Assembly (NCBI GenBank): GCA_028823485.1
Contig: JAPKBG010000010.1
Coordinates: 1 to 64,000, forward strand
Origin: Methylophilaceae bacterium
GTDB lineage: Bacteria > Pseudomonadota > Gammaproteobacteria > Burkholderiales > Methylophilaceae
DNA length: 64,000 nucleotides
Direction of reading: 5' to 3'
Part shown: in pieces, positions 1 through 4,974 of the stretch
How positions within the stretch are numbered: position 1 is the first letter of the stretch
How the letters are laid out: every line of letters starts with the position of its first letter
Program-made: the position numbers and the translations under genes
The notes under the pieces: generated by a model
Databases searched by the model: none
What the model was told of the DNA's origin: nothing
Seen by the model: the letters and a program-made list of their open reading frames with translations, nothing else

Positions 1-335
1 AAACCTTTTGCCCTTAACTCATAAGGGTCACCTAGCTCGTTAAGAACGACTTCAGGTTGAGTGTGGCCCTGTAACTCACGAGGCAATAGGTCAATCGACA
101 CAAGGTAATTTAACATGCGCTGCTTACGGCGTGAACGCCGTTGTATAACGCGTCTACCTAGCCTACAATCTCGTCGTTTTACATTTTTTGGCGTGGGAAC
201 TTTCTCTTCTACTGCTTTAGTAAATATGCGACTACCAATATCAACAATACTGTTAGCTTTTCCATCAACCTCTTTAAGCAAGGCCCAGCCCAGTGAGTTA
301 CTGCCTAAATCCAAACCTAGAATTTTCTTGTTCAT
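1..335 (-). CDS. cas9: Cas9 endonuclease, N-terminal part (cut by window edge)
   Basis: Reverse-strand translation from ATG at 335-333: MNKKILGLDLGSNSLGWALLKEVDGKANSIVDIGSRIFTKAVEEKVPTPKNVKRRDCRLGRRVIQRRSRRKQRMLNYLVSIDLLPRELQGHTQPEVVLNELGDPYELRAKG. RuvC-I motif (ILGLDLGSNSLGWAL), Arg-rich bridge helix and DPYELRAKG are Cas9 hallmarks. Open at the left edge, so absent from the ORF track. Confidence 0.92.
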   Translation of the reverse strand, partial: MNKKILGLDLGSNSLGWALLKEVDGKANSIVDIGSRIFTKAVEEKVPTPKNVKRRDCRLGRRVIQRRSRRKQRMLNYLVSIDLLPRELQGHTQPEVVLNELGDPYELRAKG

Positions 336-718: not shown

Positions 719-2182
719 TCACGGAGTGTCTACATCAACAAATGGCTCAAAATTAACACCTAGATTATTAGCCCAGGCTTTCTTCAAAGCATTCTCTGCT
801 TCACCGATATTAGCTTGCTCAACATATAAGGCATCATGGATTGGCAATGACACTATCCCCCTATCTACCAATTCACACATGGCATCAAGTAAGATATCAC
901 CCTCCATCGCTTGGAGTACAACCCCAATGTCATTGTAAAACTCCGTACACAGGTCTGGGAATTGTCTTTGAATAGCAGCTTCAATTAAGCCTCGTTCTTT
1001 TTTAGTCATTACGAATTTTGACTTAAAGTAGTCTTCCTCATCAACCTTTGCAGCAAGTGTAATGGCTCTTTCTTTAGCACCAATCATCTTTATAACTAGC
1101 CATTTAACTTTATCTCTGGCTTGGCCAGATTCCTTAGCTATTAAGTCATAAAAATCCCTAGGAAGTTGTTTCCCTTTTAAGGCGTAGAGCATTGAGGAAT
1201 GATTGGCTTTCAAATCCACTTCAGCGACAGGGTTGCCATTTAAGAGAGTGTTAATTCTAATTCTGGCTTTTCTATCTGGTAGATTTGCTAGAGGAGTATA
1301 TAACCTACCTCCCGTCATTACGTGACCACGACTGTAGATTCTTTTCACTGGTGCTTTTAGAGCATATGAAGCGTCTTTTAGTGCATCATTAATCTTTACT
1401 AACTGCTCCCAATCCTCTTGATAGGTTCTTTCTATATCAAATGGGGGGGTTACCCGCATAATGTGCTTGTCTTGTATGCTTTCAAGTTTACTTCCAGAGT
1501 AAACTATCTTAATAAACTCTTTGTTATCCTTGTTCTGGATAACTATTAATTCAGTATCGTCGGTATATTCTTCATATACCGAATAAAGTAATGGTATTAA
1601 TTTAAGCTGGAACAGCTGATTAGGTTCATAGCTATCAACTTCCTTTGTAAACGTGTTTCCAGGTTTACGAATCAAATATTTATCCAGTGCTTTCAGAGCA
1701 GCTTTTACTGAATTTCTTGTGAAGTGTAATTCCCTATAGTAAGTGCCTTTGTCATATGCTTCTTTACTTCCTGGGAGTGACAGCCTGCTTCTAGTAAATG
1801 TACAAACTACTAAGTTGTAGATTAACAGTCTAAATGTATCCTTAGCTCTGCGTTCCAACTGTGGGTCTAGTGCGTTAAACAACTCTTTAGATTCCTCAGT
1901 CATCCCTTTAATTAGGTCATTTGCATAGCGTATATCTGCAAGTTTCATGAATCTAGGCAGCTCACCTTTACCAAACTCTTTACTAATTAACTTCTTAAGT
2001 TCTTGTTCAGGAATTGCTGTTTGTTCTGATATTAATTCCATTTGCTCTTGTGAAGCTTTTTTATAGTTAATATCTCTATATATCAATGGGTTATTAGATG
2101 ATAAGGCTTTACTTATGGTGTTTGTGCTGGACTCTCTAAGATGAGTCCCACTAAAGACTTTCTTCATTGAACCTTGATTCAT
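719..2182 (-). CDS. Family-A DNA polymerase-like protein of an integrative element
   Basis: 487 aa with GGRLYTPLANLP, motif A-like VAEVDLKANHSSMLYAL, O-helix-like RDKVKWLVIKMIGA and motif C-like SLPIHDALYV in the correct order. Confidence 0.6.
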   Translation of the reverse strand: MNQGSMKKVFSGTHLRESSTNTISKALSSNNPLIYRDINYKKASQEQMELISEQTAIPEQELKKLISKEFGKGELPRFMKLADIRYANDLIKGMTEESKELFNALDPQLERRAKDTFRLLIYNLVVCTFTRSRLSLPGSKEAYDKGTYYRELHFTRNSVKAALKALDKYLIRKPGNTFTKEVDSYEPNQLFQLKLIPLLYSVYEEYTDDTELIVIQNKDNKEFIKIVYSGSKLESIQDKHIMRVTPPFDIERTYQEDWEQLVKINDALKDASYALKAPVKRIYSRGHVMTGGRLYTPLANLPDRKARIRINTLLNGNPVAEVDLKANHSSMLYALKGKQLPRDFYDLIAKESGQARDKVKWLVIKMIGAKERAITLAAKVDEEDYFKSKFVMTKKERGLIEAAIQRQFPDLCTEFYNDIGVVLQAMEGDILLDAMCELVDRGIVSLPIHDALYVEQANIGEAENALKKAWANNLGVNFEPFVDVDTP

Positions 2183-2484
2183 ACAGCCTCCTTAATAGTG
2201 ACAAACTTTCTGGTCATACGTGATGATGTATTTTTAGCTAACTCCATCTTGGAACCTATGCGTTTGAAGCGTTCGGCGATGTCACCCCTTACATTGACTA
2301 TGCTTTCATACAACTCCTCCAGCTGGGCCCCATGGAAATGCATCTGACTGTCCTCTTTGACTGACTCTAAGAGGTAATAGCAAGTTGAGTCTTCACTAAA
2401 ATACACTCGCTTTCTCCATTGGTCATCTAATGGGCATATTGGTGCGTTACATTGTTGGTATTTTGGACATGAACTTATTTTCAT
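2179..2484 (-). CDS. Small Cys-rich hypothetical protein (CPKYQQCNAPICPLDDQW motif)
   Basis: 101-aa ORF overlapping the polymerase-like gene by 4 nt; N-terminal C-x5-C-x4-C cluster suggests metal binding. Confidence 0.6.
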   Translation of the reverse strand: MKISSCPKYQQCNAPICPLDDQWRKRVYFSEDSTCYYLLESVKEDSQMHFHGAQLEELYESIVNVRGDIAERFKRIGSKMELAKNTSSRMTRKFVTIKEAV

Positions 2485-2708
2485 TGAGCCACCTCCAGTA
2501 CTTCACGTAGCTTACCTACGTTCCAACAGGTCACTCTTAATGATAGCTTAAACGGCTTGGGGATATGGCCTGACTTAACTCGTCTCCAAATGGTTGCTGC
2601 AGAGCATGCAAACAATGCCATAACTACTGGTAGCCTTACACTTGCTGAGTTAGGAAGTTGGTCAAAGAATTGTAGTGCTGGATTGATTGAATTTACAGTT
2701 TGAATCAT
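2481..2708 (-). CDS. AlpA/MerR-like helix-turn-helix regulator (excisionase-like)
   Basis: LPVVMALFACSAATIWRRVKSGHIPKPFKLSLRVTCWNVGKL matches the AlpA family pattern; overlaps the next gene by 4 nt. Confidence 0.65.
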   Translation of the reverse strand: MIQTVNSINPALQFFDQLPNSASVRLPVVMALFACSAATIWRRVKSGHIPKPFKLSLRVTCWNVGKLREVLEVAQ

Positions 2709-2713
2709 TAATG

Positions 2714-2736
2714 CATCTCCGTAAGTGGTGGAGATG
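2714..2736 (-). promoter_or_regulatory. Hairpin sequestering the Shine-Dalgarno of the AlpA-like gene
   Basis: Minus strand CATCTCC-ACCACTTAC-GGAGATG followed by CATTAATG(start): perfect 7-bp stem whose 3' arm contains GGAG 8 nt from the ATG. Confidence 0.5.
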
Positions 2737-2763
2737 TTAGATTCCCATATCTGGCTTTTTTCC

Positions 2764-2801
2764 TCACCGCAACTGCGGTAGAGTAATACAATCTGCGGTG
2801 A
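2764..2801. repeat. Inverted/direct TGCGGT repeat cluster (operator-like)
   Basis: TCACCGCA-AC-TGCGGT then TGCGGTGA: perfect 8-bp outer inverted repeat plus an inner ACCGCA/TGCGGT palindrome. Confidence 0.55.
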
Positions 2802-2807
2802 AGCTAC

Positions 2808-3473
2808 CTACTGGTCTAACTCTCTTTTTGCTTGAGGGAAAATGTCTTCTAACTGCCTTTTGCTAAGTCCTGCTATACCATTGTATTTGTACTCAATAAA
2901 GTTAATTAACTCAGCCTGAGTATTAAAGACGGGGTTGTTTAAGTCACCTGTAACTGCATTAGATGTCTTATTGTCACTTCGTTCATGTCTAAGGGTTTGA
3001 ATCGGGTAGCTGAGCAAGATTTCATTTAACGCTCCTATTGTTCTCAACAAGTTGTTACGAGTTTTTGTTGAAATTTTCTTATTATCATCTAGCTTAGTTC
3101 TATCAAAAGTTTCTTCATAAAACGCAAGCCATGGTATAGATATATTCTTCTTTTTCGCCCAGTCAATGTAAGTAGCTGGTGGACTCTTACCCTCAATGCT
3201 ACTGTGCTTCCATATTTCAACTAATCTTTCCGTTTCTAGCTGAAGGTATGCTATTAATTCTGAGTTTTCAGTTTCACTGATGATTTCACCACTTAGAGTA
3301 GTAATCGTATTTTCTTGAGAGTCATATGGATTCAATTCAAATATACCCAGTAAATAGTTAATAGCCTCTCTATAATCCCAATGCTCATAACCCAAAACTT
3401 GTGTAAGGTACTCATCATTACTTTTATCAAACTTAATAGCATTAACAATCTTTTCGTTTACTTCAATACGCAT
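2808..3473 (-). CDS. Hypothetical protein of the integrative element
   Basis: 221-aa ORF between int and alpA; C-terminus GLSKRQLEDIFPQAKREL could be HTH-like. Confidence 0.55.
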   Translation of the reverse strand: MRIEVNEKIVNAIKFDKSNDEYLTQVLGYEHWDYREAINYLLGIFELNPYDSQENTITTLSGEIISETENSELIAYLQLETERLVEIWKHSSIEGKSPPATYIDWAKKKNISIPWLAFYEETFDRTKLDDNKKISTKTRNNLLRTIGALNEILLSYPIQTLRHERSDNKTSNAVTGDLNNPVFNTQAELINFIEYKYNGIAGLSKRQLEDIFPQAKRELDQ

Positions 3474-3478
3474 AACTA

Positions 3479-4693
3479 TTATTCCTTATTAACCTTGAGT
3501 TCATCTAAATAATCAGCCCATTTTTGCATCATCACTGAACGTTGTTTTAAGTAAAGCGCATGATTGTAAGAGGCACTAACTTGATTGCGTTCTTGATGTG
3601 CTAATTGCAACTCTATGTGTTGATGGTCAAACCCTTGCTCATGCAATGCGGTAGAAGCCAGTCCTCTAAATCCATGACCTGTCATTTTATGTTTGTAACC
3701 TACAACGTCTAGAGCTTTTAGAATTGTGTTGTTGCTCATCGTTTTAGTATGATTAGTTTGATTAGGGAAAATATAATCATAACTCCCTGAGATAGCATGT
3801 AAAGCTTGCAAGGTTTGTAATGCTTGCATAGATAATGGCACGATATGCGGAGTTTTCATCTTCATCCGTTCTGCGGGTATGCGCCATTGCTTAGAATCAA
3901 AGTCTACCTCTTCCCATTTTGCTTCAATTAGCTCTGTGGTACGAACAAAAGTTAATCCCATGAGTTTAACCGCCAGTCTAGTCAATGGTTGGGAGTTACT
4001 TGCATCAAGAGCACGTAAAAGTGCTGGCAACTCTTTTAACTCAACCCTTGCATAGTTTTTCTTTTGACGGCTCTCAATAATGTCACTTGGTTTAATGTCA
4101 GTAGTAGGGTTTCGTGTGGTTTTGCTATCTTTGTTATGAGCAATTGCATATCTAAACACTTGTCCCATCATTTGGTGTGCGCGTTTAGCAATGTCTAGTG
4201 CTCCACGAGATGCAATCTTTTTGATTGTATCAACCACCTCATGTGCTTGTATTTCGTTTATTGGAAGTTTGCCTATGCTTGGAAAAATGTCTGCTTCCAG
4301 CCTTCTCATAACGTAATTAGCATGGCGAGGGCTTTTATCTTTATGCCAATTCTGCCACCACTTATCAGCCCATATTTCAAAGGTGTTCTTTGTATTAGCT
4401 TCTTTTTCTGCTTTGATGTCTTTGCGCTTATCACTAGGGTCAATACCTTCAGCAATAGATTTGTGAGCGTCTCTTACTTTTTCTTCTGCACCAGCTAACG
4501 ACACATCAGGATAACGCCCCATCGACAAGCTATTCTCTTTACCCTCAAAGCGATAACGGAACACCCAAAACTTTGCGCCCGTTGGTTTTATAAGTAAGTG
4601 CAAACCTCTACCAGCTGCCACCTTATATGGCTTGTCTTTAGGCTTTTTATTCCTGACTGATACATCTGTTAATGTTGCAGCTAGCTTAGGCAT
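3479..4693 (-). CDS. int: P4-type tyrosine integrase
   Basis: N-terminal MPKLAATLTDVSVRNKKPKDKPYKV (DUF4102-like arm-binding domain), catalytic region with FVRTTEL, HGFRGLAST, HQERN, SYNHALY. Start set at the internal ATG (4693) rather than the track start at 4756. Confidence 0.93.
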   Translation of the reverse strand: MPKLAATLTDVSVRNKKPKDKPYKVAAGRGLHLLIKPTGAKFWVFRYRFEGKENSLSMGRYPDVSLAGAEEKVRDAHKSIAEGIDPSDKRKDIKAEKEANTKNTFEIWADKWWQNWHKDKSPRHANYVMRRLEADIFPSIGKLPINEIQAHEVVDTIKKIASRGALDIAKRAHQMMGQVFRYAIAHNKDSKTTRNPTTDIKPSDIIESRQKKNYARVELKELPALLRALDASNSQPLTRLAVKLMGLTFVRTTELIEAKWEEVDFDSKQWRIPAERMKMKTPHIVPLSMQALQTLQALHAISGSYDYIFPNQTNHTKTMSNNTILKALDVVGYKHKMTGHGFRGLASTALHEQGFDHQHIELQLAHQERNQVSASYNHALYLKQRSVMMQKWADYLDELKVNKE

Positions 4694-4730
4694 ATTTAAG
4701 CATCCAATTAGCGTTTTGCGGGTAAGGCTA

Positions 4731-4768
4731 TGAGGGTATCTAGTGCGTACCCTCAAAAGTTACCCTCA
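4731..4768. repeat. Candidate integrase/excisionase arm-type sites
   Basis: TGAGGGTA (4731-4738), TACCCTCA (4748-4755), TACCCTCA (4761-4768): one inverted and two direct copies between int and tRNA-Ser. Confidence 0.35.
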
Positions 4769-4881: not shown

Positions 4882-4974
4882 TGGCGGAGAGCGAGGGATT
4901 CGAACCCTCGATACAGGTTGACCCCGTATGCTTCCTTAGCAGGGAAGTGCCTTCGACCACTCGGCCAGCTCTCC
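4882..4974 (-). tRNA. serX: tRNA-Ser(GCU)
   Basis: GGAGAGCTGGCCGAGTGGTCGAAGGCACTTCCCTGCTAAGGAAGCATACGGGGTCAACCTGTATCGAGGGTTCGAATCCCTCGCTCTCCGCCA; long variable arm, anticodon GCT, encoded CCA. Confidence 0.95.

Follow-up and report, generated by a model that had tools for sequence, protein, structure and literature searches.

In a Methylophilaceae contig, close to one end of the 64,000-nucleotide stretch that we analysed (the window), a 487-aa reading frame lies a short distance from an integrase gene. What kind of protein does it encode, and what might that protein do for the element that carries it? The original prediction saw a compact family-A polymerase, either serving the element as replicase or repair enzyme or representing a repurposed fold. 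On sequence and predicted structure, the product (P0001) is of the TV-Pol kind, a minimal family-A polymerase of integrase- or resolvase-bearing elements. The reading frame is real and lies on the minus strand, the plus strand being full of stops here, and the three proposed segments are present in PolA order as motif A (EVDLKANHSSML, with D323), motif B (RDKVKWLVIKMIGA, with R356 and K360) and motif C (SLPIHDALYV, with H449-D450). P0001 alone gave no match to Pfam, NCBIfam or PDB sequences and no nuclease domain match; its N-terminal part, already suspected to differ from the PolA exonuclease, gives no hit to any model in Pfam or NCBIfam, not even to those for exonucleases. P0001 does match phrog_4756 ("unknown function") with an E value of 4.5e-22. 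Coordinates are collected in Table 1.

Table 1. Features of the polymerase-bearing element (positions in the window unless another contig is named) and the basis of each call.
Feature	Position	Strand	Basis or remark
TV-Pol gene P0001, 487 aa	719..2182	-	ORF (ATG at 2182, stop ends 719), conservation, model
Palm/fingers core of P0001, residues 280-487	722..1345	-	Conservation and model; coordinates computed from ORF
Key codons of P0001	R293 1304-1306; D323 1214-1216; K360 1103-1105; D450 833-835	-	Computed from ORF
P0002, 101-aa Cys-containing protein (CPKYQQCNAPICPLD)	2179..2484	-	4-nt overlap with polymerase start (ATGA)
P0003, AlpA-type excisionase/regulator	2481..2708	-	Pfam Phage_AlpA, 21.7 bits (cut-off 21)
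Intergenic region upstream of alpA	2709..2807	.	CTGCGGT direct and inverted repeats (sequence)
P0004, 221 aa, no assigned function	2808..3473	-	Starts 5 nt after int stop; position of PICMI iolg/icg
P0005, P4-type tyrosine integrase	3479..4756	-	Pfam Phage_integrase (2.9e-25), Arm-DNA-bind_3, Phage_int_M
tRNA-Ser(GCT), presumed integration site, 3' end toward element	4882..4974	-	ARAGORN, Rfam
Decayed second polymerase copy	Genome G000, contig C23, 10578-10766 (L002 1498-1734)	-	

Structure prediction bore out the proposed fold. The AlphaFold model of P0001, made with 82 relatives, has an overall pLDDT of 76 that exceeds 90 in most of the palm, and that of a compact 406-aa relative (Methylophaga locus L063) has a pLDDT of 93.2 and a pTM of 0.90; for both, the best PDB matches are family-A DNA polymerases (Foldseek, E 2e-5, probability 1.00), with low whole-chain TM-scores of 0.2-0.4. 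Among viral models (BFVD) the top eleven matches are proteins of 400-450 aa, including those of Aeromonas phage 4L372D (TM 0.80) and Rheinheimera phage Barba31A; ordinary PolA comes next, after a steep fall in the match. In the P0001 model a single long helix (residues 250-269) is clear before a hairpin (280-283/291-295) that contains R293. A winged-helix N-terminus, suggested by weak PDB profile hits (E 0.1-1), was rejected when these hits vanished with a deeper alignment. Fold matching and alignment together support placement of the putative catalytic Asp pair in a superfamily-A palm, and P0001 would consist of palm and fingers with two metal-binding Asp residues, a short N-terminal region replacing the exonuclease and the Pol I thumb. 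Profile comparisons by hhalign, with a score of 39 (P 0.001) against PolA and of 33, over motif C only, against T7 RNAP, are too weak to decide ancestry.

No related loci were found with P0001 as a single query. A single degenerate peptide pattern, derived from a narrower alignment since the broad alignment has no searchable stretch, retrieved 296 loci in public genomes, and a 15-member profile detected the family in 25 of 399 sampled Pseudomonadota genomes and in 5 of 187 from the Methylophilaceae. Relatives are also carried by 26 phages and three alphaproteobacterial plasmids (tblastn). No Pfam or NCBIfam model finds this family, and PHROGs lists it as unknown. In a FastTree phylogeny the six phage members group together (support 0.92), and P0001 is a weakly placed neighbour of their clade. 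The phage proteins bring the family into contact with divPolA2 of the Caudoviricetes, described by Yutin et al. in 2024 as a palm with no homologous thumb and no exonuclease, of unknown role and perhaps an RNA polymerase (PMC11348598). Against a family profile from which the phage rows were left out, the divPolA2 representative AUR84708 scored 134 bits (E 3e-38) in an alignment that spans almost all of it, and by this sequence measure divPolA2 and the P0001 family are the same family.

Residue conservation, counted over 130 non-redundant relatives, is concentrated on the predicted active site. R293, R309, D323 and Y345 are invariant (130/130) and K360 is present in 129/129; D450 is found in 127/127, so that both metal-binding Asp residues are kept as originally proposed, and H449 (126/127), R356 (127/129) and D343 (121/130) are nearly as constant. 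The Ala (A451) that follows the motif C Asp in place of Glu had been singled out as a departure from PolA; it is indeed present, but it is a family trait and not a peculiarity of P0001, as this residue is Ser, Ala, Gly or Cys in 126/127 relatives. The position five after D323 (motif A +5) is His in 93/130 relatives, as in P0001 (His328), and that eight after K360 is Asn in 99/129. Our Pol I reference set has Glu at motif A +5, usually Glu after HD, and Tyr at K+8, and the T7-type RNA polymerase set has Gly at motif A +5 and HDS in 77/80 sequences. From this comparison we conclude that the active site of the family mixes features of both enzymes, and that the missing Glu, being the family norm and common to T7-type RNA polymerases, is no pointer to inactivation.

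This mixture raises the question of whether P0001 might be a small RNA polymerase of the single-subunit type, whose task would be to transcribe genes of the element or phage or to supply RNA primers. The HD[SAG] form of motif C, a D-x-Y between motifs A and B and a GR-x-Y all resemble the T7-type enzymes, and there are marginal matches to RNA_pol (PF00940, E 0.001; two of the 15 members, P0001 not among them) and to RNA polymerase PHROGs; the authors of divPolA2 raised the same possibility (PMC11348598). Nevertheless we consider it unlikely, because His rather than the RNA polymerase Gly is found at motif A +5, the fingers Tyr is replaced by Asn or Gly, there is no promoter-recognition domain and the fold search ranked DNA polymerases first.

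P0001 itself is a divergent member, in which the WWQ motif is absent and the residue eight after K360 is Gly where relatives usually have Asn. These differences at the WWQ and fingers positions count against a working element polymerase and would be in keeping with a palm that has lost catalysis and now serves in DNA binding or regulation. We judge the latter very improbable, since the catalytic residues are invariant in the 130 relatives and the sequence was evidently maintained by selection: the genome also contains a decayed second copy, of which the last 78 codons are left (75% identity over 63 aa), and over 60 shared codons the two copies differ with dN = 0.14 and dS = 1.02 (dN/dS ~0.14), which indicates that P0001 was under purifying selection. 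The second-copy remnant is joined to an apparent IS3-type transposase remnant. Between the two outcomes envisaged originally, structure, conservation and context thus favour the element's own family-A polymerase, and the invariant catalytic residues disfavour a repurposed fold.

The integrative setting was recognised correctly, the P4-type tyrosine integrase gene starting 126 nt from tRNA-Ser(GCT); its true start may be the ATG at 4693. Reading inwards from the tRNA, the order is int, P0004, a gap, alpA, P0002 and pol, followed after 383 nt by the start of a cas9 gene. The stop of alpA and the start of P0002 share 4 nt, and P0002 has one homologue, located upstream of a TV-Pol in another locus (L070). 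The repeats in the gap suggest that it is a possible control or origin site. The G+C content of the element is ~39%, compared with ~45% in neighbouring host genes. As the contig begins at base 1 of the window, it does not include the far end of the element; a search for the far att site with the 3' end of tRNA-Ser found as its sole other match another tRNA-Ser, which counts against the element polymerase reading. Rfam reported only the tRNA, plus one below-threshold match on its opposite strand, and a PADLOC hit to SduA (E 0.001) was dismissed as single and marginal. The cas9 fragment, downstream of pol, encodes the N-terminal 111 aa of a type II Cas9 (3-335, minus strand) and is cut by the contig end; the remaining part is absent from the assembly. 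If cas9 does lie inside the element, the element would carry a CRISPR effector.

Related loci provide the ends that the window lacks. An integrase or serine resolvase gene is found within 5 kb of pol in 42 of the 52 loci that have 5 kb on both sides. We identified 27 candidate elements of about 5-14 kb bounded by repeats of a tRNA 3' end (17-50 bp), from which L091 and L103 were dropped, their integrases being distant from either end. The 25 retained elements (5-13 kb) have TV-Pol and integrase at one end, with the integrase less than 400 nt from the element end in 24; in the exception, L141, an over-long integrase reading frame crosses the tRNA end. Repeats of at least 17 bp occur in ~3% of random windows of the same loci (35/1080), so single cases with short repeats are less certain than those of 36-50 bp. 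The genes shared among bounded elements are int and pol, with a serine resolvase in some, and no other gene is widely common. A 4-nt overlap between int and pol is present in L261, from another Methylophilaceae genome, and in L066, and it links the polymerase with the mobility module. Some loci contain two TV-Pol genes (L053, 3087-4397 and 7816-8835; L067, 6993-8741 and 12855-14534; L115), reminiscent of the two or three divPolA2 paralogues of some phages (PMC11348598). In about ten loci a ~240-aa Cys/His-rich protein is encoded near pol on the same strand (upstream of pol in L061; 8682-9395 in L263), which may be the standalone domain that Iyer et al. mention in connection with TV-Pol.

The cargo of these elements includes type I and type III restriction systems and SMC-like and STAND NTPases. 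The presence of restriction and other defence genes in many of them, together with the variable places that phage relatives occupy, could be taken to mean that P0001 is itself an anti-phage or counter-defence cargo polymerase, comparable to the defence-associated reverse transcriptases. This seems unlikely to us: pol adjoins the integrase instead of lying among the cargo, and even overlaps it in places, there is no shared effector partner, and no credible PADLOC model was obtained. A reading frame with a canonical P-loop is absent from 20 of the 25 tRNA-bounded elements, which counts against a polymerase that works with a helicase in the manner of CcPol (see below). The scan used the pattern GxxxxGK[ST], which covers the D5/AAA+ type but does not detect SF2 motors, type III restriction subunits among them, and the statement that there is no helicase is therefore limited to canonical GxxxxGK[ST] motors.

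A possible function is suggested by the PICMI satellites, in which the order is int - iolg/icg - alpA - up1 - prim, alpA triggers excision and deletion of prim lowers satellite copy number (PMC10803314). The window has the same order, int - P0004 (221 aa) - alpA - Cys-rich P0002 - TV-Pol, with 4-nt overlaps and with pol in the place of prim. The two differ in that PICMI encodes a primase of the DUF3987/DUF5906 type and uses a site at fis, whereas the window has a TV-Pol without Pfam match and tRNA-Ser. The Methylophaga locus L063 repeats the order of the window, with 4-nt overlaps at int/201-aa gene and at alpA/Cys-rich gene; its integrase is 40% and its polymerase 18% identical to those of the window. 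By the logic applied by Iyer et al., an unrelated polymerase that displaces a primase from the same slot would be expected to have the same job. We therefore think that P0001 probably serves a small tRNA-targeted element as its own primase and/or polymerase, acting after excision, and the fold match, the invariant catalytic residues and the operon and integrase linkage all support the element polymerase reading.

In the sequence of events that we propose, AlpA and the integrase would excise the element from tRNA-Ser; TV-Pol, expressed from the same coupled operon, would synthesise DNA on the excised or unwound element, starting or extending strands, with P0002 possibly delivering it to single-stranded DNA; and the copied element would re-integrate or leave with a putative helper. 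De novo priming, a preference for dNTPs, the timing after excision, the partner role of P0002 and the helper are inferred components of this scheme. A minimal palm without exonuclease might belong to a polymerase for repair or gap filling, which would complete the synthesis that recombination or damage calls for and take no part in replication, and large phages already own a replicase. Tyrosine recombinases need no gap filling, and P0001 fills the slot of a satellite primase, so that we regard this alternative as quite improbable. Returning to the element primase or polymerase, it is possible, although we lean against it, that a class of tRNA-targeted satellite-like elements of Pseudomonadota replicates by a coupled integrase and TV-Pol module without its own helicase, that TV-Pol displaced the primase in a PICMI-type order and that virulent phages acquired the same polymerase as divPolA2. 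If this were true, TV-Pol would add another, mostly unexplored type to the satellite primases.

The TV-Pol enzyme and its presence in integrase-bearing elements are already known. What is new, to our knowledge, is the identity of divPolA2 with element-borne TV-Pol-type proteins, the set of tRNA-bounded elements, the overlap of int with pol and, for a Methylophilaceae element, a gene order like that of PICMI; in the searched passages of a 2024 study of Methylophilaceae islands no polymerase is mentioned (PMC10872708). Two literatures, on the mobile-element TV-Pol (2008) and the phage divPolA2 (2024), are thereby joined, Yutin et al. having referred to TV-Pol in their background only and not connected it to divPolA2 (PMC11348598). 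With this operon and several precisely bounded elements of 5-8 kb, the predicted function as a primase is open to direct testing, and active-site residues between those of Pol I and T7-type RNA polymerases bear on the origin of both enzymes.

Among known polymerases, canonical PolA (PF00476) differs in having Glu where P0001, which lacks a Pfam match, has His328 and Ala451, and the single-subunit RNA polymerases (PF00940), likewise unmatched, differ from P0001 at motif A +5 (His) and at the fingers Tyr position (Gly/Asn). The A-family polymerase CcPol of SCCmec, counted as a TV-Pol by Iyer et al., primes de novo with its partner MP (PMC7581432, PMC10061031). P0001 resembles CcPol-MP and PolA-SSB in being an A-family polymerase that belongs to a recombinase-bearing island and has the gene for a small protein as its neighbour. 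However, CcPol is much closer to housekeeping Pol I than P0001, which counts against transferring its activity to the window; the CcPol-MP system has an OB-fold partner and a helicase, neither of which was found here, and the PolA-SSB group of Bacillota elements retains the 3'-5' exonuclease domain in whole or in part, of which none was found for P0001.

The closest likenesses are to TV-Pol and divPolA2. TV-Pol (transposon-virus polymerase) was described in 2008 by Iyer, Abhiman and Aravind as a minimal family-A core of 400-600 aa without nuclease, either standalone or with an N-terminal domain or D5 helicase, and defined by an absolutely conserved hairpin Arg, two Asp residues, a fingers Asp with RxxxK and a two-helix coiled-coil thumb; it occurs in proteobacterial elements with a lambda-type integrase or gamma-delta resolvase, near restriction systems (PMC2579912). 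P0001 has the corresponding hairpin R293, D323 and D450, D343 and R356xxxK360, no nuclease match and a length of 487 aa. No D5 helicase was seen here, and the window adds alpA and the PICMI-like order. The sequence link to the named carrier, Microcystis phage Ma-LMM01, is weak: its candidate TV-Pol, gp030, gave no HMMER hit and an hhalign P of 0.006 over hairpin and motif A, but contains NYDVVKCH, KTAVLAVIN (Asn eight after Lys) and QHDG, residues typical of the P0001 family. As for divPolA2, AUR84708 has FDE at motif C, and the large phages that encode divPolA2 also have a regular DNA polymerase and place divPolA2 in variable neighbourhoods (PMC11348598), which counts against a role as element replicase; the phages of 80-140 kb possess a replicative polymerase of their own, whereas P0001 resides in a small integrative element.
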